Source: Bradyrhizobium betae
GTDB taxonomy: Bacteria; Pseudomonadota; Alphaproteobacteria; Rhizobiales; Xanthobacteraceae
Direction: 5' to 3'
Assembly (NCBI RefSeq): GCF_008932115.1
Contig: NZ_CP044543.1
Span: 2,982,501 to 3,046,500, forward strand
Length of the DNA: 64,000 nucleotides
The notes beneath the pieces are model-generated. The model did not search any database. It was given only the letters and a program-made list of their open reading frames with translations, and was not told where the DNA came from. Of the stretch, positions 1 to 12,865 are shown one piece after another. Made by a program: the position numbers and the translations under genes. Numbering within the stretch: position 1 is the stretch's first letter; every line of letters begins with the position of its first letter.

Positions 1-94
1 TCCACCGGATTTCGAGGCGGTGCTCGACAGCATCGGCTCGCTCGAGACGCGTCTCAACAAGAAGGGCGATACGGGAGGCGGGGCCGCGCGATGA
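1..94 (+). CDS. C-terminal end of an unidentified protein (partial)
   Basis: A frame open from the left window edge ends with TGA at 92-94, overlapping the ATG at 91 of the next gene by the four bases ATGA. It encodes about 30 residues with a glycine/alanine-rich tail. The overlap suggests that it is translationally coupled to the sigma-like regulator and is the upstream gene of the same operon. The visible part is too short to assign a family. Confidence 0.55.
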   Translation, partial: PPDFEAVLDSIGSLETRLNKKGDTGGGAAR

Positions 95-948
95 ACCAGT
101 TGGAGGGAGCTTTCGACACCGGGCAAAAGGCAGACGCGCGTGGCGCGGGCGAAGCGATCGTAACCCCGCTGCGCAAACGCCGCCTCAGCGGCGAACTCTA
201 CGAGCGCGACCCGAAGATAGAAGCCCTCATCGCCGAATTGGCAGTCCTGCCGCGTGATGGCTTGATCGCCAGGGCGGAAATCACCAAGCGCTCGGACCCG
301 GGCTACGTCCCGAGCGAATGTCTCGTTTACTTCATTCGCGCGAGCCGTCGCGACAACAACGAGGTGTGGTTCGAGCGCCTCTATCGGATCTTGACCGAAC
401 GGGTGCTGCGCAGTTTGCCCAGGGCGGAAAGCTCCGATGGAAAGACGGAATCGCTGACGCGCGGGGTCGTGCGCGACAAGGTGTTCGGCCGGTTCGTCGA
501 GCTCTTTTCGGCGGACCGCGCCGCCTACGACGAAAAGGTCGACTACTTCGAGGTGCGCTTCGATGGCGCGCTAGCGAGCCTGCGGCGCGATGCGCAGGAA
601 AAGGCCTGGCGCGACGAAAACCGTTCCCAGCCCCTCGAATATGACGAGGAGAGCGGAGAACTGTCACCGGAGGTCGAGGCGGCCGCAGGGACCCACGATC
701 CCTTCGCCGTGTCGGATTTCGACGACCCGTCTTACCGGTCGCGCCTGGATGCAGCGATTGAAGCTCTACCGACAGAACAAAGCAGGATCATTCACATGTT
801 GAGACAGGGCTTCCCCATCGACTCCAAGGAGCCGGACGTCATGACCATCGCCAAGGCTTTGGGCCGCTCCGAAAAGACCGTCCGAACCTACCGCGACAAG
901 GCCTTCGCCGCCCTGCGAGCTGCCATGGCCGACGGAGACGAGCGGTGA
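91..948 (+). CDS. Sigma-70 region 4-like regulator
   Basis: 285 residues. The C-terminal 70 residues look like a sigma-70 region 4 helix-turn-helix: a conserved 'ALPTEQSRIIHML' helix, then 'TIAKALGRSEKTVRTYRDKA' as the DNA-recognition part. The N-terminal 200 residues are charged and unassigned, and I do not see a clear region 2 core-binding segment, so it may be a sigma-like DNA-binding regulator, not a complete sigma factor. Its stop overlaps the next gene's GTG start (945-948, GTGA), indicating coupling. It probably controls the downstream ImmA/IrrE-helicase and ubiquitin-like genes; that role is inferred from position only. Confidence 0.7.
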   Translation: MNQLEGAFDTGQKADARGAGEAIVTPLRKRRLSGELYERDPKIEALIAELAVLPRDGLIARAEITKRSDPGYVPSECLVYFIRASRRDNNEVWFERLYRILTERVLRSLPRAESSDGKTESLTRGVVRDKVFGRFVELFSADRAAYDEKVDYFEVRFDGALASLRRDAQEKAWRDENRSQPLEYDEESGELSPEVEAAAGTHDPFAVSDFDDPSYRSRLDAAIEALPTEQSRIIHMLRQGFPIDSKEPDVMTIAKALGRSEKTVRTYRDKAFAALRAAMADGDER

Positions 949-1523
949 GCCCCGGCGGCGGACGTCCATCCCGCGAGGCCGTGCTCGACGCGTTCGCGGT
1001 CGAGAGCGAGCCTGGCCGGTCGACCTTGGAACGCTATCTGCGGCTATACCCGGAATATGCCGGGGAGCTCATCGACCTCTCGCGCGAACTCAGCCGCGAG
1101 GCTTATGAAGATGCCGCACCCCTCTCTGCTACCGATCGGGCGCTGATCGACGCTGCCTGGTCGCAACACGCGAAGGTTATGCCGGCGGCAGCAGCCGACC
1201 CTTTCGCGGCGCTGACGGTCGATGACTGGCGCGCCGTCGCGCAGCGTCTGGACGTGCCCCGGCAGGTCGTGACCGCACTGCGCGAACGGCGGGTCTCTCT
1301 CGTCAGTATCCCGCGACGCTTCCTGGCGATATTGGCGGATGCGATGCGCAGCTCTGTCGCACAGTTGGAGTCGTCCTGGGGGCCAGCGCACCTGATTGTC
1401 GCGCGCAGCTATAAGGCCGACAGCAAACCGGTGGCCGGCGAGCAGGTCACCTTCGAGCAAGTGCTGATCGATGCCGGCGTCCCGGCCGAGAAGCGCGCCC
1501 GGCTGTTGGCGGAGGCGGACTGA
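945..1523 (+). CDS. Unassigned protein, possible HTH partner of ImmA/IrrE peptidase
   Basis: 192 residues starting at GTG 945, which overlaps the stop of the sigma-like gene. No family is recognised with certainty. The middle ('DDWRAVAQRLDVPRQVVTALRERRV' area, about residues 86-130) has the spacing of a degenerate Xre/Cro helix-turn-helix. The next gene begins with an ImmA/IrrE metallopeptidase, and Xre-type repressors are the usual partners and substrates of that peptidase family, so an antitoxin or repressor role is plausible but inferred. The stop (1521-1523) is one base from the following ATG, so the two are cotranslated. Confidence 0.6.
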   Translation: MSPGGGRPSREAVLDAFAVESEPGRSTLERYLRLYPEYAGELIDLSRELSREAYEDAAPLSATDRALIDAAWSQHAKVMPAAAADPFAALTVDDWRAVAQRLDVPRQVVTALRERRVSLVSIPRRFLAILADAMRSSVAQLESSWGPAHLIVARSYKADSKPVAGEQVTFEQVLIDAGVPAEKRARLLAEAD

Positions 1524-1524
1524 C

Positions 1525-4500
1525 ATGGACAGTGTGGAGCTCGCCAGGCAAGTCGCCGCCGAGCTTCACGCTCGCCTCGTTGCATCCGGCGCCGATCCCT
1601 GGTCGCCCTATGACTTTGCTGTCGCCGAGGCCAAGCGGCGGGGGATTGATGTCGAACGGACTGCCGCCGGCGCAGCCGTCCTCAATGGCGGCCGCGCGAC
1701 TTTCGTCGCCGCCGACGATCTGATTCTTCACGAGAATATGGGCTCTCCGTTCGAGCAAGCTTTCCTCGTGGCGCATGAGATCGGCCATGTCGAGCTGGGC
1801 GACGATCCTGGTGGCGAAGCGGCGCCGATGATTGATCCGGCACGCCCGGCCGAGCCCTCACCAGTCGGAATGGATCGGGTTGTCGATTATGGACGCCGGC
1901 AACGCCGCGAAGTCCAGATGGACCTGTTCGCGCGCGAACTGCTGCTTCCGCGCACCGTCGCGCGGGCGCTCCATGTCGACCAAGGGCTCGCCGCGTCCGC
2001 CATCGCCGCGAAGCTCGGCGCGCCGTTCGAGGTCGTCGCGCAGCAGTTGTTCGATGCTTTGCTGCTGCCGCCCGTGCCTCCCGCCGCGACTGCGGCGCAT
2101 GTCGAACGGCCGCTCAATCCGCTGCAAGCGGCCGCTGCGGCGCATCGCGGCGAAGCCTATCTGCTTGAGGCGGGGCCTGGCACCGGCAAGACGCAGACGC
2201 TGATCGCGCGCGTCGAGGGCCTTCTAGGCGAGGGCGTCGATCCACGGCGCATACTGCTGTTGACCTTTTCGAACAAGGCAGCGGGCGAGATGGCCGAGCG
2301 GATCGCGCGCAAGCGGCCCGAGGCTGCGGCCGCGATGTGGATCGGCACGTTCCATGCCTTCGGCCTCGATATCATCCGTCGTTTCCATGCGGAGCTCGGC
2401 CTGCCGAAGGACCCGCGGATGATGGACCGGACCGAAGCGGTCGAACTCCTCGAGGGGGAGTTCCCGCGGCTTAGGCTCGCGTACTACCGCAATCTTTACG
2501 ATCCGACCCAGATCATTGCCGACATGTTGGCCGCCGTATCGCGGGCGAAGGATGAGGTGGTCGACGCCGAAACCTACGCCGCGCTCGCCGACGCCATGCA
2601 GGCGAAAGCCCAGGACTCGGATGCGCGCGAGGCGGCGGAACGCGCCGGCGAGGTTGCCCGCGTCTACGCGGCCTACGAACAGCTCAAGCGCAACGCGCAT
2701 TGCATCGACTTCGGCGATCTTGTCGCCTTGCCGGTGCAACTGCTCGAAAAGGAGGCGGCCATCTGCGCGGCGCTGCAGGCGCAATATGATCATGTCCTGG
2801 TGGATGAGTATCAGGACGTGAACCGCAGCAGCGTGCGGCTGCTGAGCGCACTGCGGCCCGACGGCCGCAATCTCTGGATGGTCGGCGACGCCAAGCAGTC
2901 GATCTACCGGTTTCGCGGTGCCTCATCCTTCAACATAACCCGGTTCGGCAAGGAGGACTTCGCCGGTGGCAATCGCGGTCGATTGAAGCGTAATTATCGT
3001 TCGGTGCCGGAGATTGTCGCCAGCTTCTCCAGTTTCGCGATCACGATGCGCGCCGGCGATGCGGATAGTGGCCTCGACGCGGACCGCGACGCCAATGGAC
3101 ATAGGCCCGAGTTGCGCACGGTCCAGCGCGCCGAGCAGCAGCAGGTCGCCCTGGCCGACGCTATCGAGGAGCTGCGGCGTGACGGCTACGCCTATCGTGA
3201 CCAGGCGGTCCTGTGCACCGGCAACGAAAAGCTGTCGACGATCGGGCAGGACCTGGAACGGCTCGGCGTGCCGGTCCTCTTCCTGGGAAGTCTGTTCGAG
3301 CGGGGTGAGGTCAAGGATCTCCTGGCTCTCCTCTCGATCCTGGTCGATCGGCGCGCCATGGGCCTGGTGCGCATTGCCTGCTGGCGAGACTTCGCCACCT
3401 CCTTTGCCGATGTGGTCGCGGTCTTCGACCATCTGCGGGCGGCCGAGCACGCGCCGGCGGGCTGGCTGCGGCATGGCGAGGCGATCCCCGGTTTGAGCGA
3501 CAGGGGGCGGCAGACCGTTGCCAAGCTCGCGACTGCGCTCGATGGTTTCGATCAGACGGCCTCGCCCTGGACCGTGCTCGCGACGCTGTTGCTCGATCGC
3601 ACACGCATCGCCGCGCGCCTGGGCGCGTCGGAGGATCTCGCCGACCGCACACGGGGCATCGCGATCTGGCAATTCCTCAACTTTGTGCGGGTACAACCGG
3701 CCGGACGCGGGCTGCCCATCACGCGCCTGCTCGATCGTGTGCGCAGGCTCGTGCGGCTCGGCGACGACCGCGACCTGCGCCAATTGCCGGCGGCCGCCCA
3801 GCATCTCGACGCCGTGCGGCTGATGACCATCCATGGCGCCAAGGGCCTAGAGTTCGGTGGCGTCCATATTCCTGGGCTTAACAGCGACACGATCCCACGC
3901 ACGCCGCCGGCGCCGCCCTGTCCGGCGCCCGACGGGATGATCGCGGGGGCGGAGGGCAGTGCGCTGGAGGCGTTCCGCGCAGGTCAGGCCGAGGAGCAGG
4001 AGTGCCTATTTTACGTGGCGCAGTCGCGCGCCCGCGATCGCCTGATCCTTTATGCGCCGACCGAGAAGAGTAACGGCCACAACCGACCGCTTTCGCCATT
4101 CCTCGACCGTCTCGGGGCGACCTTAACACGCCGTTCGCTCGTGCCGGCACGGCCGCTTCCCGTGGCCGCGGAAGCTCGGGATATCGATTTGGTGGTCGAC
4201 GGACGGCTGCGGTTAGGCGCCCCGCAGATCGCTCTTTATGAATCCTGCCCGCGTCGCTTCTTCTACACGCATGTCCTGCAGGTCGGCGGCCGGCGAACCG
4301 CGACCGCCTTCATGCATCTGCATGAGGCGGTTCGCGTGGTGGTCGAGGCGGTGATCGCGTCGGATGGACCCGTGTCCGAGCAGGCGCTGCAAGATCGCAT
4401 CGATGCGGCGCTCGCCGGCGAGGGGCTCGGCGAGCACGGCTATCGCGCGGAATTCCGCGATCTGGCGCTGGCAATGCTGCGCTTCTTCCTGGCGAACCGC

Positions 4501-4926
4501 GCCGAAGCAGTCCCCGAAGCGCCGGTCGCGCTCAGCCTCAGTTTCGGCGGCGAGGAGATCATCGTTCGGCCGGACGAGGTGCTGGTGCGGCCGGACGGCA
4601 TCCGCGCCGTGCGCCGCATTCGCACGGGTCACATGCGGTCGGCCGAGGGCAAGGATGTCGGCGCGGCGGCGCTGATGCTGGCGGTCAGGCAGTCCTTTCC
4701 CGGCGCGGTCGCAGAGCTCGTCCATCTTTCCGACGGCGAGGCACATGCGCTTGCCTTGTCCGATCGGGAGCTGAAGGGGCGCAAGGACAAGCTCGCAAAG
4801 TTTCTCGGCGACATCCGCGCCGGACGGTTTCCGGCCGAGGTTTCGTCGCGCACCTGCCCGAACTGCCCGGCCTTCTTCATCTGCGGGCAGACCCCCGACG
4901 GCCCCTTGCAAAAAAAGTTCGTCTGA
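1525..4926 (+). CDS. ImmA/IrrE metallopeptidase fused to UvrD-type helicase with C-terminal FeS nuclease-like domain
   Basis: 1133 residues from ATG 1525, chosen because GGAGG lies about 10 bases upstream and the preceding gene stops at 1523. The N-terminal domain (about 1-190) carries the zinc motif HEIGH at residues 84-88 (ImmA/IrrE family). Residues about 195-900 are a superfamily 1A helicase: Walker A 'GPGTGKT' near 217, 'DEYQD' near 427, 'VGDAKQSIYRFRGA', and 'MTIHGAKGLEF' near 770. The last 230 residues resemble the AddB/Cas4-type iron-sulfur PD-(D/E)XK nuclease, with one Cys near 908 and a C-x2-C-x5-C cluster near 1110-1119. The expected Asp...(D/E)-x-Lys catalytic stretch reads 'RRIRTG', so nuclease activity may be lost. 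Likely role: DNA damage or invader sensing coupled to proteolysis. Confidence 0.88.
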   Translation: MDSVELARQVAAELHARLVASGADPWSPYDFAVAEAKRRGIDVERTAAGAAVLNGGRATFVAADDLILHENMGSPFEQAFLVAHEIGHVELGDDPGGEAAPMIDPARPAEPSPVGMDRVVDYGRRQRREVQMDLFARELLLPRTVARALHVDQGLAASAIAAKLGAPFEVVAQQLFDALLLPPVPPAATAAHVERPLNPLQAAAAAHRGEAYLLEAGPGTGKTQTLIARVEGLLGEGVDPRRILLLTFSNKAAGEMAERIARKRPEAAAAMWIGTFHAFGLDIIRRFHAELGLPKDPRMMDRTEAVELLEGEFPRLRLAYYRNLYDPTQIIADMLAAVSRAKDEVVDAETYAALADAMQAKAQDSDAREAAERAGEVARVYAAYEQLKRNAHCIDFGDLVALPVQLLEKEAAICAALQAQYDHVLVDEYQDVNRSSVRLLSALRPDGRNLWMVGDAKQSIYRFRGASSFNITRFGKEDFAGGNRGRLKRNYRSVPEIVASFSSFAITMRAGDADSGLDADRDANGHRPELRTVQRAEQQQVALADAIEELRRDGYAYRDQAVLCTGNEKLSTIGQDLERLGVPVLFLGSLFERGEVKDLLALLSILVDRRAMGLVRIACWRDFATSFADVVAVFDHLRAAEHAPAGWLRHGEAIPGLSDRGRQTVAKLATALDGFDQTASPWTVLATLLLDRTRIAARLGASEDLADRTRGIAIWQFLNFVRVQPAGRGLPITRLLDRVRRLVRLGDDRDLRQLPAAAQHLDAVRLMTIHGAKGLEFGGVHIPGLNSDTIPRTPPAPPCPAPDGMIAGAEGSALEAFRAGQAEEQECLFYVAQSRARDRLILYAPTEKSNGHNRPLSPFLDRLGATLTRRSLVPARPLPVAAEARDIDLVVDGRLRLGAPQIALYESCPRRFFYTHVLQVGGRRTATAFMHLHEAVRVVVEAVIASDGPVSEQALQDRIDAALAGEGLGEHGYRAEFRDLALAMLRFFLANRAEAVPEAPVALSLSFGGEEIIVRPDEVLVRPDGIRAVRRIRTGHMRSAEGKDVGAAALMLAVRQSFPGAVAELVHLSDGEAHALALSDRELKGRKDKLAKFLGDIRAGRFPAEVSSRTCPNCPAFFICGQTPDGPLQKKFV

Positions 4927-4952
4927 CCTTACCGGTCGGCCTCCCTCGCTCC

Positions 4953-5005
4953 GATTGGACCCTTAGAGCCGCGGCGCTGCCTCGGCCGAACCTAAGGACC
5001 CAATC
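4953..5005 (+). promoter_or_regulatory. Hairpin covering the multiubiquitin ribosome binding site
   Basis: Arms 4953-4966 and 4992-5005 pair at 12 of 14 positions with a 2x2 internal mismatch. The 25-base loop contains further complementary GCCG/CGGC segments. The AAGGA ribosome binding site (4994-4998) of the gene starting at 5008 lies inside the right arm, so the structure could hide it and limit translation. It could alternatively be the weak end of the upstream transcript, but there is no T-run. Confidence 0.5.
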
Positions 5006-5007
5006 TT

Positions 5008-5754
5008 ATGAACACCGAAGAACTTCTTGATTACGACGATCTCGGCAACGCCCTGCGCGAAGGCCGGGCGTTGCGTCCGGCGCGGGGGTATCGCTTTCTC
5101 CTCGCGCAGGGCGATCTCAACTTCCAGTCCCGTGTGGTGAGCGATCCCGTGCCGCTCGGCCGCCAGTTGCTGGAAGCCGCGGCACTCGACCCGCGGGACG
5201 GTTACAGCCTCATCGCGATCCTGCCCTCGGGCGATTTCGAGGATGTGAGGCTCAACGAGCCGTTCGACCTGCGTGAGCGCGGCGCCGAGCGGTTCATCGC
5301 CTTCCAGACCGACCGCGACTTCAAGCTGACCCTCAACGACCACGAGCTGCTCTGGGGCAAGCCGGTCATCAGCGGCACGGTGCTCTACGGCCTCGCCAAG
5401 CCCGGCGAGGGGGAGGCCGTCTTCCTCGAGGTTCCCGGCGGTGAAGATCGCCTGATCGAGCATGGCGAGCTGATCGATCTGGTCCAGCCCGGCATCGAGC
5501 GGTTCATCACCGCGCGGCTGACGTTCGAGATCATCGTCAATTCGCGGCCGCGCACGGTGAACGCCCGCACGGTGACGTTCGAACAGATCGTCCAGCTCGC
5601 CTTCCCGGGCCAGCACGAACCCAACGTCGTCTTCTCGATGACCTATCGGCACGCGGCGTCGACGCCGCCCGCCGGTGAGCTCGGGGTTGGCGGCTCCGTC
5701 GACGTCAAGAAGAAGGGCACGGTGTTCAATGTCACGCGCACTGTTCAGTCGTAA
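5008..5754 (+). CDS. Multiubiquitin protein (three tandem ubiquitin-like domains)
   Basis: 248 residues from ATG 5008. Three consecutive ubiquitin-like repeats of the Pfam multiubiquitin type can be read at about 22-95, 96-168 and 169-245. The second has the clear beta-grasp pattern 'FKLTLNDHELLWGKPVISG...ERFIT'. The protein ends in 'GTVFNVTRTVQS', without a terminal Gly-Gly. In this family the chain is thought to be the modifier used by an adjacent E1/E2 enzyme. The next gene starts inside this one (5729), so the two are translationally coupled. Conjugation to targets or processing between repeats is inferred from the neighbours, not visible here. Confidence 0.88.
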   Translation: MNTEELLDYDDLGNALREGRALRPARGYRFLLAQGDLNFQSRVVSDPVPLGRQLLEAAALDPRDGYSLIAILPSGDFEDVRLNEPFDLRERGAERFIAFQTDRDFKLTLNDHELLWGKPVISGTVLYGLAKPGEGEAVFLEVPGGEDRLIEHGELIDLVQPGIERFITARLTFEIIVNSRPRTVNARTVTFEQIVQLAFPGQHEPNVVFSMTYRHAASTPPAGELGVGGSVDVKKKGTVFNVTRTVQS

Positions 5755-6901
5755 TCCGGACCTCAAGCGGCTGCGGGACGAAGGCTACTTCGTCCAGCAG
5801 CAGGGCGGGTATCTCGTTATGCGCGAGGTGCCGTATGTCGATGCGCGCCGGGAGGTGCGCATCGGCACCCTCATCTCCAGCCTCACGCTGGCCGGAGATC
5901 AGACGCGCCCGCCCGACACCCATGTCATCCACTGGGACGGCGATTTCCCGTGCCACGCCGACGGCAGGCCCATCCAGGGCATCTCGCATGCGGCCGGCGC
6001 CTTCGATCTCGGCCACGGCCTGAAGGCGACGCACAGCTTCTCCAGCAAGCCAGACGGCGGCTACTCGGACTACCACCACAAGATGACGAGCTACGCGAAT
6101 ATCCTCGCGGGCCCGGCCGCAGTGCTGAAGTCCGGCGCGACGCCTCGCACCTTCCGCGAACCGGAAGAGGAGGAGGACAGCGTCTTCAACTATGTCGAGA
6201 CCGCCTCCGACCGTGTCGGGATCGGCGTCCTGACCGAGCGACTCGTCAACGAGCGGGTCGCCATCATCGGCGTCGGGGGGACCGGCGGCTACATCCTGGA
6301 TTTCGTCGCCAAGACGCCTGTCCGGGAAATCCGGCTGTTCGACAGCGACGAGTTCCTGACCCATAACGCGTTTCGCGCGCCGGGCGCTCCGAGCCTGGAG
6401 GAATTGCGGGAAGCGCCCAAGAAGGTCGAATACCTGAAGCGCATCTACAGCCGGATGCACCGGAACATCGTGGCGCACGATGTCGCGCTCGGCGTCGACA
6501 ACATTCACCTTCTCGACGGCGTCACCTTCGCGTTCCTGTCCCTCGATGCGGGTGACGCTAAGCGGCTGATCGTAGAGAAGCTCGAGGCGATCGGCGCCGC
6601 GTTCGTCGATGTTGGCATGGGGCTCGAGCTCGACGAGGGGTCGCTGGGCGGCATCCTGCGCGTCACCGCCAGTACGCCGGAGAAGCGCGATCACGCGCGG
6701 CAGCGCATTTCCTTCGTCGGCGGCGGCGCCAAGGACATCTACGCCTCCAACATCCAGGTCGCGGATCTCAACGCCCTGAATGCTGTCCTCGCGGTCGTCA
6801 AGTGGAAGAAGATTCGCGGCTTCTACCGCGACCTCGAGCGCGAGCATCACTGCACCTACACCACCGACGGCAACATGCTGATCAACGGGGATCTCGCGTG
6901 A
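5729..6901 (+). CDS. Fused E2-like / ThiF-type E1 ubiquitin-like activating enzyme
   Basis: 390 residues from ATG 5729, overlapping the multiubiquitin gene by 26 bases; in-frame extensions upstream look like non-coding shadow. The N-terminal about 145 residues match the domain usually placed before ThiF in multiubiquitin operons (DUF6791 / prokaryotic E2-like). It contains 'HVIHWDGDFPCHADG' with Cys75 as a candidate catalytic residue. From about 165 on is an E1/ThiF adenylation domain: nucleotide-binding 'GVGGTGG' at 181-187 and acidic 'DSDEF' at 205-209 followed by Asn213 and Arg216. No E1-type catalytic Cys domain is visible, so transfer from adenylate straight to the E2-like part is plausible. 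Confidence 0.85.
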   Translation: MSRALFSRNPDLKRLRDEGYFVQQQGGYLVMREVPYVDARREVRIGTLISSLTLAGDQTRPPDTHVIHWDGDFPCHADGRPIQGISHAAGAFDLGHGLKATHSFSSKPDGGYSDYHHKMTSYANILAGPAAVLKSGATPRTFREPEEEEDSVFNYVETASDRVGIGVLTERLVNERVAIIGVGGTGGYILDFVAKTPVREIRLFDSDEFLTHNAFRAPGAPSLEELREAPKKVEYLKRIYSRMHRNIVAHDVALGVDNIHLLDGVTFAFLSLDAGDAKRLIVEKLEAIGAAFVDVGMGLELDEGSLGGILRVTASTPEKRDHARQRISFVGGGAKDIYASNIQVADLNALNAVLAVVKWKKIRGFYRDLEREHHCTYTTDGNMLINGDLA

Positions 6902-7338
6902 TACGGCACAAGCGACTCGAACATCGTTTCGTCGAACACATCCCTGAGCGCCTTGAGGCAGGCATTCTCTATGTTTCGATGGAATATGCCACATCAGCCC
7001 ACAGCTGCTGCTGCGGTTGCGGCGAGGAGGTCGTCGCCCCCTTCACGCCGACGGACTGGAAGATGACGTTCGATGGCGAGACCGTCTCCCTTCGGCCGTC
7101 GATCGGCAATTGGACGCTGAAATGCCGGTCACACTATGTGATCGACCGCAGCAAGGTGATCGAGGCCGGCCCCTGGAGTGACGAGCAGGTCGAAGCCGAG
7201 CGTCGTCGTGACCGCGCTGCCAAAGCGCGCTTCTACGGGCAGACGCCAGCGATCGAACTTGCCGTTCAGCCCGCTCCCGTCAAGGCGGCTCCCGGCTTCT
7301 GGCGCCGCGCCTGGCGTTGGCTATCTGGCAGATCGTGA
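6898..7338 (+). CDS. DUF6527 family protein of multiubiquitin operons
   Basis: 146 residues from GTG 6898, overlapping the E1 stop by GTGA. The N-terminal part has 'HSCCCGCGEEV' (Cys37-39, Cys41) and the conserved 'PSIGNWTLKCRSHYVI' segment of DUF6527, a small family that regularly accompanies multiubiquitin/E1 pairs. As I recall, this family corresponds to the peptidase component (BubE) in bacterial ubiquitination-like operons; treat that as recollection. The Cys cluster could bind metal. The C-terminal 35 residues (tryptophan- and arginine-rich) look like a membrane-proximal or basic tail. It is the last gene of the cluster, followed by a hairpin. Confidence 0.8.
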   Translation: MIRHKRLEHRFVEHIPERLEAGILYVSMEYATSAHSCCCGCGEEVVAPFTPTDWKMTFDGETVSLRPSIGNWTLKCRSHYVIDRSKVIEAGPWSDEQVEAERRRDRAAKARFYGQTPAIELAVQPAPVKAAPGFWRRAWRWLSGRS

Positions 7339-7615: not shown

Positions 7616-7852
7616 ATGGATGCTACCGAATTCAAGCCCGGCGATCTTGTGCGGGTGAAGTCAGGCGGGCCGATCATGACGGTCGAGCAGGTCGGGAAGA
7701 CGGCCATGCTGGAGGAGGATGCCGTCTGGTGTGTCTGGTTCGAGAAGGTGGGCAACAAGCAGGTCGCGCGGAAAGACACGTTCGCGCCGGTCGTGCTGGA
7801 GAAGGCTGAGAAGCCACGAGCCGCGTTCTCCGTCGGCGTCGTTCGGGCGTAG
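7616..7852 (+). CDS. YodC-like small protein (DUF2158)
   Basis: 78 residues from ATG 7616, with GAAGGAG 8-14 bases upstream. The pattern 'FKPGDLVRVKSGGPIMTVE' followed by 'VWCVWFEK' is the hallmark of the YodC/DUF2158 family, an SH3-like fold of unknown function. It lies 11 bases before the caspase-helicase gene on the same strand, so the two form an operon. In this context it may be an accessory or regulatory subunit of the caspase-helicase; that is inference from adjacency. Confidence 0.82.
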   Translation: MDATEFKPGDLVRVKSGGPIMTVEQVGKTAMLEEDAVWCVWFEKVGNKQVARKDTFAPVVLEKAEKPRAAFSVGVVRA

Positions 7853-7863
7853 CGTGGTGCCTC

Positions 7864-10800
7864 ATGCCGTTTCGCGGCCTGTTCATCGGCATCGACCGTT
7901 ATAGCTCGACCGGCATTGATGAGCTGACCTGCGCGCGTCGCGACGCGACGGCGCTGGAGGCACTGTTCTTCGACACGCTGGGCGGCAGCACAGTCTTGCT
8001 GGCAGATGCGGAGGCCACGCGGCAGCGGATTGAGGACGCATTTGCCGACCTGGCCGGCTGCGGCCCCGAGGATACGGTGGTGATCGCGTTCTCCGGCCAT
8101 GGGTCGGAGACACATGAGCTCGTCACCCACGACGCGAATCCAGATGATCTCGCCGGCTCCGCGATCCCGCTCGAGCTGTTGCAGGAATGGTTCTCGCGGA
8201 TACCGGCAAAGCGCCTGATCCTGTTCCTCGACTGTTGTTTTTCCGGCGGCATTGGGGCGAAGGTTCTGCACGTCGATGCGAAGCCGCGCAGCCTTTTGTC
8301 CGCCGAAGCGCGCCTGGCTCAGCTTGGCGGCGCTGGTCGGATCATCTTCACCGCCTCCGCGGCGACCGAGCCCGCCTATGAGCACCGCCGGTTCGGGCAC
8401 GGCTTTCTGACCCACTTTCTGCTTGAGGCGCTATGTGGCGCCGAGGAAGTCGTGAGCGGCGGCAAGCTCTCGCTCTACCGCCTCCTCGAGCATGTCACGA
8501 GCCGCGTCCGGGCGGCCGCGCTGCAGGGCGGCAAAGAGCAGAACCCGACCATGCGCGGGAGCATCGACGGCGATGTCGCGTGGCCCGTGTTCGTGCCGGG
8601 CGCTAAGTATCGGGCGGCCTTCCCGGCGCGTCTGCCTGCCAAGGTGACGTCCGATCTTGCCAGCCTCTCGTCGGCCGGTTTCCCCGACGCGCTTGTCACC
8701 GCCTGGGCTGGAGCGATCCCGTCCTTGAATGCGCTTCAGATCTCCGCCATCACCGACTTCGGCGTGCTGGACGGCGAGAACCTGGTGGTGTCGGCCCCGA
8801 CATCCTCGGGCAAGACGATGGTGGGCGAGCTCGCGGCGCTCCGGAACGTGCTGGATCGCAAACGGGCTTTGTTTCTGCTGCCGCTTAAGGCCCTTGTGGC
8901 AGACAAGCGGCGGCACTTCGAGAGCGTCTATGGCGGTTTCGGGGTCCGCACGGTGGAAGCGACGGGCGAGACGGACGACATCGCGCCTCTGCTGCGGGGC
9001 CAATACGATGTCGGTCTCCTGACCTATGAGAAGTTCGCCGCGATCGCGCTGACATTCCCTCATGTGCTGGCGCAGGTCGGCGCGATCGTGATCGACGAAG
9101 CGCAGATGATCGCCGACCGTGGCCGCGGCGCGAATCTGGAGTTCATTTTGACGCTCATCCGGATGCGCCGGCGTGAGGGGATCGAGCCCCAACTGATCGC
9201 GCTTTCGGCTGTGATCGGGGACACGAACGGCCTTGAGCAATGGCTCGGCGCGCGGCTCTTGCGGCGCACGGAGCGGCCCGTTCCGCTTGAGGAGGGCTTG
9301 TTGCTCGGCACCGGGCATTTCCGCTTTCTTGACCCGGAGAATGGCAATGAGCAGGTTGAGGGGCCGCTCGTTCGGCGTCTTGTCGGCGGCAAAGGATCCA
9401 GCCAGGATTGGATCATCCCGCTGGTGCGCAAGCTTGTCGCCGAAGGCCAGCAGGTGATCGTGTTTCGCGAAACCAAGGGCGAAGCCCGCGGCTGCGCCAA
9501 CTATCTCGCAGAGTCGCTCGGATTGCCTCCGGCTGCCGAGGCGCTGACGCAGATGCCCGGCGGCGATCCCTCGCAGGCCAGCGCCGACTTGCGGAGCGCG
9601 CTGGGGCGCGGCGTCGCTTTCCACAACTCGGATCTCGACCGCGAAGAGCGGCGCGTCATCGAGGAAGAATTTCGCCGTAGCGGCTCGGGCCTGCGCGTCA
9701 TCGCAGCCACGACGACGCTGGCGATGGGCGTGAACACGCCCGCGTCATCGGTCATCATCGCCGGCTTGAATCATCCCGGCGACGAGCCCTATTCGGTAGC
9801 CGAATACAAGAACCTAGTCGGTCGCGCGGGAAGGCTTGGCTTCGCCGAGAAGGGAGCTTCGTATCTGCTGGCGCTCGATCCGCGCGCCGAGCATGATCTG
9901 TGGTCGCGATACGTGACCGCGGAGCCGGAAGACTTGGTGTCCCGCTTCCTCGACGGTACAACCGACCCACGCTCCCTGATTATCCGCGTCCTAGTCGCGG
10001 CACAACGAGCGGCCGGCGAAGGCGTGCCGAGCGAGGAGATTGTCGAATTTCTGGAATCGAGCTTCGGCGCGTTCCAAGCCCGGCGCGCCCATAGCGCGTG
10101 GCAGTGGAGCCGGCCGGATCTGCTTTCGGCCCTAGCGGATTTGGAACGCCACGGCCTGGTGCAGAAGAACGCTACAGGCGCGTATGAATTGACCAAGCTG
10201 GGCCGTCTCGCTGGCGAAAGCGCGGCAGAGGTCGGGTCCATCGTCGCGCTCGTAGATTGCCTCGGCTCGCTTCAGCCCCAAGAAATCAGCGATCCCGTCC
10301 TGATTGCCGCAGCTCAAACGACGGTCGAGGTCGATCAACTCCTTTTTCCGATCAACCGAAAAAGCACGCAGAAAGAGCCTCAGCTATGGCCCAACGAGCT
10401 GCAGAGGCAGAATGTGCCGTGGCACGTCCTGAACGCGCTTCAGCGCGGGACAACAGAAGATCATCAGGCGACCCTGCGTGCGAAGAAGGCGGTCGCTTGT
10501 CTTTTGTTCGTGTCCGGTCGTGCCATGAGCGAGATCGAGCGCGTGCTGACGCAGTTCGGTGGTGCGTTTGGCGGCGCCGCCGGCCCCATACGCGCGGTCG
10601 CAGCGCGGACTTGCGATCTGATGCCGGTCGCGGCTCGCGTCGCCGAGATCCTGCACCCCACGCTCGATCTCGGTGACCGTGTGAGACGTCTGGCGATCCG
10701 GTTGACATATGGCGTGCCCAGCGCCGCCGTCGACCTCGCCCAATTCGCTGGAGCCGATTTGCTGCGGGGCGACTATTGCCGCTTGGCCGCCGCGCAGCTC

Positions 10801-10968
10801 TGTGAGCCCGAACAGATCGACGCCGCAACTGATGACCAAATTCTGGCATGCGTGGACAAGGACAGGCGCAAGCTTGCACTTGTCCGCGATGCGGCGAAGC
10901 GCGTTGCCAAGCGTCGGGCCGAAGCGGTGGCGCCTTCCGCCCCGATCCTTGAAGTATATGTGCCCTAA
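7864..10968 (+). CDS. Caspase-like peptidase fused to Ski2-like DEAD/DEAH helicase
   Basis: 1034 residues. Residues 1-240 are a peptidase C14/metacaspase domain: 'SGHGS' with His79 and 'LDCCFSGG' with Cys125 as the expected dyad. Residues about 275-700 form a superfamily 2 helicase: Walker A 'APTSSGKT' near 313, 'DEAQ' near 411, 'TTTLAMGVNTPA' near 623, and 'NLVGRAGRLG' near 649, the order seen in Ski2/Hel308-type enzymes. The remainder (700-1034) is mostly helical with probable winged-helix and ratchet parts. Caspase effectors fused to nucleic-acid sensors are known from prokaryotic immune systems, so helicase-triggered proteolysis after foreign nucleic acid recognition is a reasonable inference. 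Catalytic residues look intact. Confidence 0.88.
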   Translation: MPFRGLFIGIDRYSSTGIDELTCARRDATALEALFFDTLGGSTVLLADAEATRQRIEDAFADLAGCGPEDTVVIAFSGHGSETHELVTHDANPDDLAGSAIPLELLQEWFSRIPAKRLILFLDCCFSGGIGAKVLHVDAKPRSLLSAEARLAQLGGAGRIIFTASAATEPAYEHRRFGHGFLTHFLLEALCGAEEVVSGGKLSLYRLLEHVTSRVRAAALQGGKEQNPTMRGSIDGDVAWPVFVPGAKYRAAFPARLPAKVTSDLASLSSAGFPDALVTAWAGAIPSLNALQISAITDFGVLDGENLVVSAPTSSGKTMVGELAALRNVLDRKRALFLLPLKALVADKRRHFESVYGGFGVRTVEATGETDDIAPLLRGQYDVGLLTYEKFAAIALTFPHVLAQVGAIVIDEAQMIADRGRGANLEFILTLIRMRRREGIEPQLIALSAVIGDTNGLEQWLGARLLRRTERPVPLEEGLLLGTGHFRFLDPENGNEQVEGPLVRRLVGGKGSSQDWIIPLVRKLVAEGQQVIVFRETKGEARGCANYLAESLGLPPAAEALTQMPGGDPSQASADLRSALGRGVAFHNSDLDREERRVIEEEFRRSGSGLRVIAATTTLAMGVNTPASSVIIAGLNHPGDEPYSVAEYKNLVGRAGRLGFAEKGASYLLALDPRAEHDLWSRYVTAEPEDLVSRFLDGTTDPRSLIIRVLVAAQRAAGEGVPSEEIVEFLESSFGAFQARRAHSAWQWSRPDLLSALADLERHGLVQKNATGAYELTKLGRLAGESAAEVGSIVALVDCLGSLQPQEISDPVLIAAAQTTVEVDQLLFPINRKSTQKEPQLWPNELQRQNVPWHVLNALQRGTTEDHQATLRAKKAVACLLFVSGRAMSEIERVLTQFGGAFGGAAGPIRAVAARTCDLMPVAARVAEILHPTLDLGDRVRRLAIRLTYGVPSAAVDLAQFAGADLLRGDYCRLAAAQLCEPEQIDAATDDQILACVDKDRRKLALVRDAAKRVAKRRAEAVAPSAPILEVYVP

Positions 10969-11274: not shown

Positions 11275-12636
11275 TCAAGCTGCCAAGCGACGCTCCTCGT
11301 CCTCGGCTTCGTTCCCCGGCTCTCCAACCGCTTTGGTCAGGAAGAGGTCAAGCGCAGCTCGACGAGAATCACGATCCAATGCGTAGGCCGTCTGTTTGAA
11401 TTCGATCCCCTCGAGTAGCCCTTGGATGTAACCGGAGATCGTGTCGGCGGCCATGATGAGCGCAGTGTCGAGCGTGTGAATGTATTTGCTCGTCACCGAG
11501 CCCTTGGAGTGGCCGACGAGCGCCGCGATGGTCACCTCGGTGAAACCGAGATCGTTGGCGATGCTGGCAAAGCTGTGACGCAGGACATGCGGGGTGACGC
11601 CGGCGAGCGGACTGTCGCTGAAAATCTGTTCCCAATGGTTCGGGAAGCTGCCGAACGCATGGTCCTCGCCCTGACCTGGGAAGACATAGGTGCCCGCTGC
11701 GGTCTTGCGCCGTTCCTCCAGATACTCGACGACGGGCAATCCGATTGGACGAATGGACTCACCTTCCTTGCTGTCCACCAGGCGCATGCAGCTCGCGTCG
11801 GTGTCAGCTTCGATCCACATTAGCGAGATCATTTCCGAGCGGCGGCAGCCGGTGAGCGCGATCTGCCGGATGATGTCCACGGTCATGGCGTATTTTTCGT
11901 TCGCCGCGGCATCGCGAAGCATTTGCCCGAGGGTGCGATACTCCGCCTCGGTCAGCCTACGATTCCGAACATTGTCCTTGGGCTTCTTGATGCCGTGCGC
12001 CGGATTGACCTCTATAATCCCAGCATCGACAGCGTAGGTGAGGATTCCGCCCAATAGGCCGACGGTGCGCGTGGCGGTGCCCGCGCCACCACGAACAATG
12101 GCCTTTCCTCGCAGCTTTTTCGTCTTGACGGCGACGCGCGTCTTGCCGGCCATGATGTCCTTCAAGACCTTGTTGATGTCGGCCTTGGTGAGATCCTTGA
12201 CCCGGCGCGCGCCGATCAGCGGGATGATGTGCCGCTCGATACGGCCAGTGTCGGTGACGATGGTGGTGGGCTTTTTCGGTCGCCCGCCCTTACCCAGAAT
12301 GAGGCCCGCGTTCAGATCAGCGGTATAGAGGGCGCAAAGCTCCTTGACCGTGATGGCCTTGTGATCGAGCTGACGTTCTTCGGAAGGGTTGTCGCCGCGC
12401 GCGACGCGCCCGAGTTGGACCTTCGCTTCTTGCCGGGCTGTCTCCGGCGTCCACACGCCATGCAGGCCGATGGTGTAGCGTCGCGTGCGTCCAACAGCGC
12501 GATATTGGATGAGGTAGCTGCGCTTGCCGGAGGCGAACACGCGGAGGCCGAAACCGGGCAGTTCGTCGTCCCAGATAAAATAGTCCTTCTCGCGAACATC
12601 GGCAGCGTCCACGATCCGCTTGGTCAGCTTTGCCAT
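11275..12636 (-). CDS. P4-type tyrosine integrase
   Basis: 453 residues. The N-terminus ('MAKLTKRIVDAADVREKDYFIWDD') is the DUF4102 arm-binding domain typical of P4-like integrases that use tRNA genes. The catalytic domain shows the Arg of 'ALTGCRRSEMI', 'HVLRHSFAS' (H-x-x-R) and the nucleophile Tyr in 'SKYIHT'. It catalyses site-specific integration and excision of the island. It is read away from the attachment fragment at 12821-12865, with two palindromes in its 5' region. The reading frame is full length, so the element may still be mobile. Confidence 0.93.
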   Translation of the reverse strand: MAKLTKRIVDAADVREKDYFIWDDELPGFGLRVFASGKRSYLIQYRAVGRTRRYTIGLHGVWTPETARQEAKVQLGRVARGDNPSEERQLDHKAITVKELCALYTADLNAGLILGKGGRPKKPTTIVTDTGRIERHIIPLIGARRVKDLTKADINKVLKDIMAGKTRVAVKTKKLRGKAIVRGGAGTATRTVGLLGGILTYAVDAGIIEVNPAHGIKKPKDNVRNRRLTEAEYRTLGQMLRDAAANEKYAMTVDIIRQIALTGCRRSEMISLMWIEADTDASCMRLVDSKEGESIRPIGLPVVEYLEERRKTAAGTYVFPGQGEDHAFGSFPNHWEQIFSDSPLAGVTPHVLRHSFASIANDLGFTEVTIAALVGHSKGSVTSKYIHTLDTALIMAADTISGYIQGLLEGIEFKQTAYALDRDSRRAALDLFLTKAVGEPGNEAEDEERRLAA

Positions 12637-12820: not shown

Positions 12821-12865
12821 CTCCGAAGGCAAAGGTCACACGTTCGAATCGTGTCGGGTGCGCCA
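12821..12865 (+). repeat. Attachment site: 3' fragment of a tRNA gene, probably tRNA-Arg(CCG)
   Basis: The 45 bases read as anticodon loop CTCCGAA, then GGCAA, a variable region, a T arm with TTCGAAT between CACACG and CGTGT, and the acceptor end GGGTGCG-CCA. Upstream of 12821 the sequence does not pair with the anticodon stem and no matching 5' acceptor is present, so only the 3' half remains. This is the usual footprint of a P4-type integrase crossing over in the anticodon loop. The anticodon assignment CCG (Arg) rests on the loop reading. Confidence 0.75.

Follow-up and report, generated by a model that had tools for sequence, protein, structure and literature searches.

We describe here a six-gene operon in a 64,000-nucleotide stretch of the Bradyrhizobium betae genome (7.42 Mb; contig NZ_CP044543.1, positions 2,982,501 to 3,046,500 of the forward strand); the whole of this stretch is called the window below. 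Genes 1 to 3 encode a sigma-like factor, a 192-aa protein and a fusion of an M78 protease with a UvrD helicase (together, the trio), and genes 4 to 6 form a ubiquitin-like cassette of a multiubiquitin modifier, a DUF6791-ThiF activating enzyme of the E1 type and a DUF6527 protein. That these six genes constitute one conserved operon was shown by sequence comparison. The mobile six-gene system can be read as a DNA-damage-gated, self-contained sigma switch for the ubiquitin-like cassette, a reading to which we assign a probability of about 0.58. In a wider sense, and with the odds roughly even, the trio would be a previously undescribed portable controller for bacterial ubiquitin-like systems. 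This controller would consist of the sigma-like factor, the 192-aa protein as its inhibitor, the M78-UvrD protein as a sensor of DNA damage, and private promoters of the form TT[AT]CCG[GA]-N16-CGAT[TC], the copies of which change together and one of which usually lies within the sigma gene, where it would feed inhibitor and sensor. At least three cassette architectures would share it, namely those with a DUF6791-E1, with a JAB-E1 and with a Gly-Gly modifier plus JAB; a fourth would probably do so too. No description of the six-gene unit with a portable sigma-like switch and private promoters serving several ubiquitin-like systems was found in the papers searched, subscription literature being outside the scope of the search. 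A first-pass annotation of the same DNA had proposed a three-gene system; its three genes are real, whereas its extent was set too narrowly, with the three upstream genes and the promoter-like sites being missed.

Spread and composition of the operon

The six genes were found in identical order in plasmids of Cereibacter, Shinella, Klebsiella, Acinetobacter and Mesorhizobium, where the M78-UvrD protein has approximately 1130 aa. The DNA 3′ of the six genes is shared between the Shinella and Mesorhizobium plasmids but not with the other plasmids or the window. Among the 90 loci with the E1 gene (L016-L105; relatives from contigs were the best 80 of 589), all three upstream genes were matched at 58, including loci of Acidobacteria, Planctomycetes and Verrucomicrobia. 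These 58 trio loci include near-identical copies: nine of the 90 carry an E1 at least 99% identical to that of the window, eight of them with the trio. Three copies appear decayed (L029, L046, L087), in that the modifier gene is open and genes of the trio are disrupted or absent.

Judged from its neighbours in more distant relatives, the trio is not confined to the DUF6791-ThiF E1 and also precedes other cassettes. Plasmid searches with genes 2 and 1 returned 73 and 79 records, respectively, of which eight divergent ones were examined. In L120, L121 and L127, the trio is followed by Multi_ubiq, a 465-aa protein and DUF6527; the 465-aa protein is JAB-ThiF by Pfam in L120 and by annotation and length in L121 and L127. 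A JAB-E1 cassette accompanies the trio in L142 and L144 as well (tblastn). In L125, the trio precedes a Multi_ubiq protein with a Gly-Gly end, a JAB protein and a 428-aa protein, in which ThiF stayed under the cut-off (E 0.0014). A further arrangement, consisting of a protein of about 160 aa, a DUF7665-type protein, a JAB protein and a protein of about 460 aa, follows the trio in L124 and L126. The same cassette is present in L123, where the helicase gene is absent from the trio, and its type recurs in L143 and L145. Since neither the ~460-aa nor the ~160-aa protein gave a convincing Pfam match, we only infer that this last cassette is ubiquitin-like. In L122, an insertion sequence element follows the trio. 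As an aside, L125 carries two different ubiquitin-like cassettes back to back, and on its side no separate trio accompanies the DUF6791 one.

A less biased test started from the family of the 192-aa protein (P0006), which was matched in 11 of 347 genomes of the order. Nine P0006 loci were taken, the own genome and G909 (contig end) not being among them. Three adjoin a DUF6791 cassette, two a JAB-E1 cassette and two a JAB cassette of the L123/L124 type, so that a ubiquitin-like or JAB cassette adjoins 7/9, where the split into full and partial matches was made after the result had been seen.

The first protein of the trio (P0007) belongs to a family in which Sigma70_r4_2 was seen in 16 of 26 members at E≤0.01. 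Its relatives are annotated as sigma-70 family in the Acinetobacter plasmid and as 'DNA-binding response regulator' in other plasmids. For P0006 itself there was no Pfam match; a weak Xre-like helix-turn-helix (HTH) was found in two of 27 family members, and the profile gave two weak matches to PDB sequences (best 0.049). The third protein (P0005) matches Peptidase_M78 at 4.5e-16, and its M78 part aligns with the ImmA/IrrE protein of L022 (hhalign E 3.1e-5). The residues of the protease (HExxH), Walker A and DE-box are invariant in 25/25 sequences, and the full invariant set comprises H84, E85, H88, E129, K222, D427, E428, D1017, C908, C1111, C1114 and C1120. The nuclease domain lacks the acid/Lys pair at the usual place; D1017 and the four Cys are kept, and R1030 is present in 24/25. 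This PD-(D/E)XK domain with its four invariant Cys occupies window positions 4225-4884 (residues 901-1120), and a four-Cys arrangement of this kind is found in AddB-type iron-sulfur nucleases.

Promoter-like sites and the proposed switch

In the stretches between the UvrD and modifier genes, a bipartite motif, TTACCGG-N16-CGATT, is kept and the remainder drifts. The motif lies 70-81 nt 5′ of the modifier start in 55 of the 58 trio loci, with a spacing of 16 in 54 and of 17 in one; in L056 and L063 it is off by one base. Among the 25 modifier loci not scored as trio, five have the motif (L044, L046, L053, L059, L064), all with a UvrD fragment; in L064 the modifier start had been miscalled. Before the remaining modifier genes without the trio, it was seen in 0/20. 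In L120, L121, L127, L142 and L124, the motif stands 77-81 nt before the first cassette gene. The window contains two exact matches (100 shuffles gave none), and these are the only two exact sites of the whole genome, both within the six-gene operon. The case for the motif rests on position, not abundance.

In relatives with variant motifs, the cassette site and the sigma-gene site carry the same variant: TTTCCGG in L141, TTTCCGG with a spacing of 15 in L122, TTTCCGA in L125 and TTTCCGG...CGATC in L126. In L143, the −35-like halves of the two sites agree and the last base differs, and in L123 there is a single TTTCCGG site. In L126 and L143, the second site is not inside the sigma gene but immediately 5′ of it. 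A TTACCGA form also precedes the second, divergent DUF6791 cassette of L125.

The internal copy is exact in 45 of the 58 sigma genes, near-identical copies counted. When the sites were reduced to 23, base-by-base invariance was partly forced by the pattern used to collect them. Codon usage was followed over 43 nonredundant sequences, in which the codons that spell the internal copy are nearly fixed (TAC 39/39, CGG 39/42, GCG 39/41, ATT 39/41). The corresponding residues Y215, R216, A222 and I223 have the lowest synonymous entropy among the conserved Tyr (6), Arg (18), Ala (7) and Ile (6) columns, respectively, and R218, L219 and A221 between the frozen codons vary. The frozen codons look like selection on the DNA within a coding sequence, which makes a promoter feeding genes 2 and 3 the natural reading of the internal copy. 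We also considered, and rejected by eye, a conserved RNA hairpin ahead of the modifier gene: in distant relatives, the bipartite motif is kept and the inverted repeat of the window is not. In one genome (G010), two exact sites lie 4,225 bp apart, compared with 4,197 bp in the window, and no DUF6791 was found in that genome; the pair perhaps marks a trio with another cassette.

The genes that stand in the place of the trio at trio-less loci bear on its function. In the 14 of 17 such loci that were scanned (20 upstream proteins), the slot holds an M78 protein in seven (with an XRE HTH in four), an HATPase and/or winged HTH in three and a RES domain in one, and three gave no match; M78 or kinase/winged-HTH-type regulators thus occupy 10/14. 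Mapped on the E1 tree, the regulator labels require four changes, compared with a shuffled mean of 11.2, and the loci with kinase-type regulators sit in a supported fork with trio rows. In excerpts of PMC13373217, CapH+CapP, CapW and CapK+CapS are described as regulators of Bub and other immune operons activated by single-stranded DNA, and CapW or CapH+CapP is placed at 219 of 544 Bub operons. Like CapH+CapP and CapK+CapS in that account, the trio has an M78 protease (P0005 shows this trait of CapP) and stands before the cassette. Unlike CapH+CapP as described there, its M78 part is fused to UvrD, its output appears sigma-like, and P0006, its presumed substrate, cannot be recognised as a CapH. 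Because the slot holds M78 or kinase regulators where the trio is missing, the M78 part aligns with that of L022 and the labels follow the E1 tree, the trio most likely does the job of these regulators, with a sigma-like output.

A different view would cast the trio as a self-standing defence unit or effector, namely a UvrD/nuclease like GajB of Gabija, that travels with ubiquitin-like cassettes, or as a target of conjugation, and not as a regulator. P0005 does match GajB and reverse transcriptase-associated helicase models, and trio loci are surrounded by other helicase and nuclease genes. However, the constant gene order, the motif before the cassette with the trio and not without it, the regulators in the same slot at trio-less loci and the degenerate nuclease motif of P0005 all argue against it. 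We regard this view as unlikely, albeit the best-surviving alternative.

Several observations weigh against the sigma switch as well. The Sigma70_r4_2 match of P0007 itself is under Pfam's cut-off, only region 4 and not region 2 of a sigma factor was detected in this protein, and its profile had no PDB match at E≤0.1. P0006 showed no similarity to the CapH-like HTH protein of L022. One trio locus (L078) is without the motif; in L144 and L145, none was seen before the cassette, and tblastn found no sigma gene. The partial P0006 matches L146 and L147 have no cassette. Finally, the motif is not over-represented: 60 same-genus genomes contained 27 exact sites, in 20 of them, versus 65 for the reversed pattern, 20 of which are in one genome (G002).

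In the DNA-damage-gated sigma switch that we favour, the sigma-like factor would read both motif sites. In unstressed cells it would be restrained by the 192-aa protein, acting as an anti-sigma factor or repressor. Engagement of single-stranded or damaged DNA by the UvrD part would render the M78 protease part active, and the latter would remove the 192-aa protein. The freed sigma-like factor could then transcribe genes 4 to 6 and, from the internal site, genes 2 and 3. The ThiF part would adenylate the invariant Ser C-terminus of the untrimmed modifier, and DUF6791 and DUF6527 would help to hand the modifier to targets. Such a system would likely serve to ward off phages or other mobile DNA, or to respond to DNA damage. 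All features are summarized in Table 1.

Table 1. Positions of the operon features and of the adjoining integrase in the window
Feature	Position	Strand	Basis
Sigma-70-like factor (P0007, 285 aa), operon gene 1	91..948	+	Sigma70_r4_2 1.7e-4
Internal TTACCGG-N16-CGATT copy in sigma gene, 186 nt before gene 2	732..759	+	exact in 45/58 sigma genes
Conserved 192-aa protein (P0006), candidate anti-sigma or protease substrate	945..1523	+	family comparison
M78 (ImmA/IrrE) protease - UvrD helicase - degenerate PD-(D/E)XK domain, four conserved Cys (P0005)	1525..4926	+	Pfam
Promoter-like TTACCGG-N16-CGATT, start 79 nt before modifier start	4929..4956	+	55/58 trio loci
Multi_ubiq modifier, three beta-grasp repeats (P0001)	5008..5754	+	Pfam 1.3e-60
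Modifier/E1 overlap, encoding modifier tail NVTRTVQS-stop and E1 start	5729..5754	+	26 nt in 83/84 loci
DUF6791-ThiF activating enzyme (P0002, 390 aa)	5729..6901	+	Pfam, NCBIfam
DUF6527 protein, probable metal site (P0003)	6898..7338	+	Pfam 4.1e-23
Tyrosine integrase, adjoining element edge	11275-12636

The cassette and its proposed conjugation chemistry

By its gene content, the three-gene cassette belongs to a known class and fits the polyUbl operon type of 2006; the six-gene extent with the upstream genes and promoter-like sites goes beyond the known cassette. The hidden Markov model search proposed in the first-pass annotation matched all four families, namely Multi_ubiq in three stretches of P0001, DUF6791 (5.6e-61) and ThiF (5.6e-8) in P0002, which NCBIfam places in the PRK06153 group at 1e-215, and DUF6527 in P0003. 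The genes overlap as annotated, by 26 nt between modifier and E1 (ATG start at 5729) and by 4 nt between E1 and DUF6527 (GTG start at 6898).

The reference type is 6e (polyUbl), with a subset in which domain X replaces JAB (Iyer, Burroughs and Aravind 2006, PMC1779556; restated in PMC11354881). From the excerpted account in PMC1779556, the tandem ubiquitin-like repeats, the E1 fused to a non-JAB N-terminal domain, the small, probably metal-binding protein and the sporadic, mobile occurrence are shared with the window. P0001 falls within the one to three repeats of that type, and P0002 has ThiF fused to the non-JAB DUF6791, a candidate for domain X. The window cassette lacks the separate RWD/E2-like gene of type 6e, and its operon has a sigma-like factor, a UvrD helicase and a promoter-like motif, none of which is named in the excerpts of that account. 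The putative metal patterns are similar in shape and differ in order and spacing (C37-x3-C41-x34-C76-x2-H79 in the DUF6527 protein, C-x3-C-x35-38-H-x2-C in the excerpts for type 6e). The residues H35-x-C37-x-C39-G-C41...C76-x2-H79 are kept in 49/49 DUF6527 sequences and form a probable metal site; a search of PDB sequences with the DUF6527 profile gave no match.

The kinship to Bub-like operons seen in the first-pass annotation was confirmed, the E1 profile finding its best PDB match in Citrobacter BubCD (PDB 9ea5; 2.6e-10), followed by UBA5. In contrast to Bub operons, the window has DUF6791 instead of JAB, plus the putative sigma/M78-UvrD controller; no JAB domain was matched by Pfam in P0001-P0009. 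Bil (BilABCD) likewise combines a multi-domain ubiquitin-like protein with an E1 and differs in its separate E2 (BilB) and JAB protease genes, no match to either of which was found in P0001-P0009. The same set contained no nucleotidyltransferase (CD-NTase) by Pfam, as would be present in a type II cyclic oligonucleotide-based antiphage signalling system (CBASS).

The modifier family profile matches PDB 9cd2 at 6.7e-59, the C-terminus included, the Methylobacterium BilA structure at 5.3e-37 and, weakly, BubA (0.0023). The modifier had been annotated as a three-domain protein. Its three stretches were recovered, and the three-domain form is one among several, as modifiers with the DUF6791-ThiF E1 family range from 92 to 257 aa (one 268-aa modifier with a miscalled start was left out), and with 9cd2 a close homologue has been solved.

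As first annotated, and in contrast to the canonical ubiquitin pathway, the modifier lacks a Gly-Gly end and closes with ...NVTRTVQS; its last residue is Ser in 45/45 nonredundant loci. The 26-nt overlap is kept in all but one of the 84 loci, the exception (L080) having no usable E1 start, and it was also found in further relatives, with 23 nt and a TTG start in L012-L015. Within the overlap, variation by modifier codon position amounts to 6.6 bits at position 3, compared with 3.7 and 4.2 bits at the others, and V, T and the terminal S of the tail are invariant (both over the 45 nonredundant loci). Since the changes fall at the third position of the modifier codons and V, T and S do not vary, these patterns indicate that selection acts on the tail NVxxTxxS-COOH itself, including its unusual Ser C-terminus. 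As there is no JAB protease, the modifier is not expected to be trimmed.

In the enzyme, the adenylation motifs are intact, as had been stated: G181, G183, G184, T185, G186, D205 and D207 are identical in 55/55 sequences, the window's own counted. S105, Y112, Y122, R162, H212, R216, K232 and D294 are equally invariant, and S105, an invariant hydroxyl, sits in the DUF6791 domain. The claim that the E1 lacks a Cys domain of its own also held: no column of the ThiF part has Cys in more than 27/55, and thus no conserved catalytic Cys was found, which again differs from the canonical pathway. Two other claims were not established. Residue 75, the proposed acceptor Cys, is Cys in 50/55, Ser in L089, Tyr in L103 and Phe, Phe and His in L013-L015, where L089 and L103 are both complete six-gene operons. 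For the E2-like label of DUF6791, hhalign against five Prok-E2_B domains, a weak test, gave a probability of 0.3%, and no E2 homology was found. The likeness is confined to the motif H65-x5-G71-x2-P74-C75, which we take to be reminiscent of E2 enzymes. Oxyester intermediates have reportedly been observed in Bub in one study.

These features would also suit an enzyme that conjugates no protein and in which the ThiF part modifies the modifier's own C-terminus, much as MccB acts on a peptide or as happens with sulfur carriers. The absence of Gly-Gly and of a conserved E1 Cys and the non-universal residue 75 speak for this possibility, and the E1 profile also matches MccB (6.1e-6) and PaaA (2.5e-4). 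However, the best matches are BubCD of a ubiquitin-like operon and then UBA5, and a DUF6527 gene is present at 90/90 E1 loci (L016-L105), so that we consider it rather improbable. Most doubtful is a modifier that serves chiefly as a scaffold assembling into filaments, with the enzyme in control of this process: the close homologue 9cd2 is solved, and Gong et al. in 2025 are said to have described three-domain bacterial ubiquitin-like proteins forming calcium-dependent filaments, but the strictly conserved C-terminal tail and the occurrence of ~95-aa modifiers, of one-domain size, with the same E1 family argue against it.

Mobility and biological meaning

The placement on an integrative element was corroborated. 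A near-identical block ends exactly at window position 12865 in 9/10 records compared, L087 stopping at 12831. The block, 99.98-100% identical, extends over 39.5 kb in G016 and 30.3 kb in G1080; in G1081 it is split in two and totals 33.3 kb. Beyond the element edge, by contrast, the matching sequence of these genomes is only 84.6-88.5% identical. By eye, the edge resembles the 3′ end of a tRNA gene; ARAGORN found no tRNA in the window. Over 16.1 kb compared, a Xanthobacter contig was 99.0% identical and two Sphingomonas contigs, one of them from a metagenome-assembled genome, were 99.9% identical. The occurrence of near-identical elements in contigs of three genera (Bradyrhizobium, Xanthobacter and Sphingomonas) suggests a very recent spread between them. 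With the own genome counted, DUF6791 was found in 12 of 60 same-genus genomes and eight of 398 of the phylum, and Multi_ubiq in eight of 289 genomes of the class; the cassette is therefore not uniformly vertical in the genus; a uniformly vertical distribution would have spoken against the original proposal. Phage records gave no match. Viral contigs gave eight loci, with full-length matches only in L104 and L105 and matches over 21-69 residues in the other six.

Downstream of DUF6527, a pair of genes for DUF2158 and a caspase (C14)-Hel308-like helicase lies at window positions 7616-10968. The caspase-helicase (7864-10968) was considered as a part of the system and rejected, a long match 3′ of the cassette being present only in the ten near-identical element copies (L024-L028, L032, L048, L052, L083, L087). 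In L041 (57-3246), a 39%-identical DUF2158/caspase-helicase pair stands upstream of the sigma gene instead. The pair is possibly a separate two-gene defence unit co-occurring in islands with the cassette.

The cassette was recognised from sequence in 2006, and no stated trigger for it was found. A private promoter with two exact sites in the genome would offer a direct readout of what the system senses. The evidence from the 26-nt overlap, by which the Ser C-terminus of the modifier itself appears selected, makes the activation chemistry of the modifier testable. If the proposal is true, one switch would be common to cassettes with and without the diglycine end and with and without JAB, and different conjugation chemistries would stand under one alarm.

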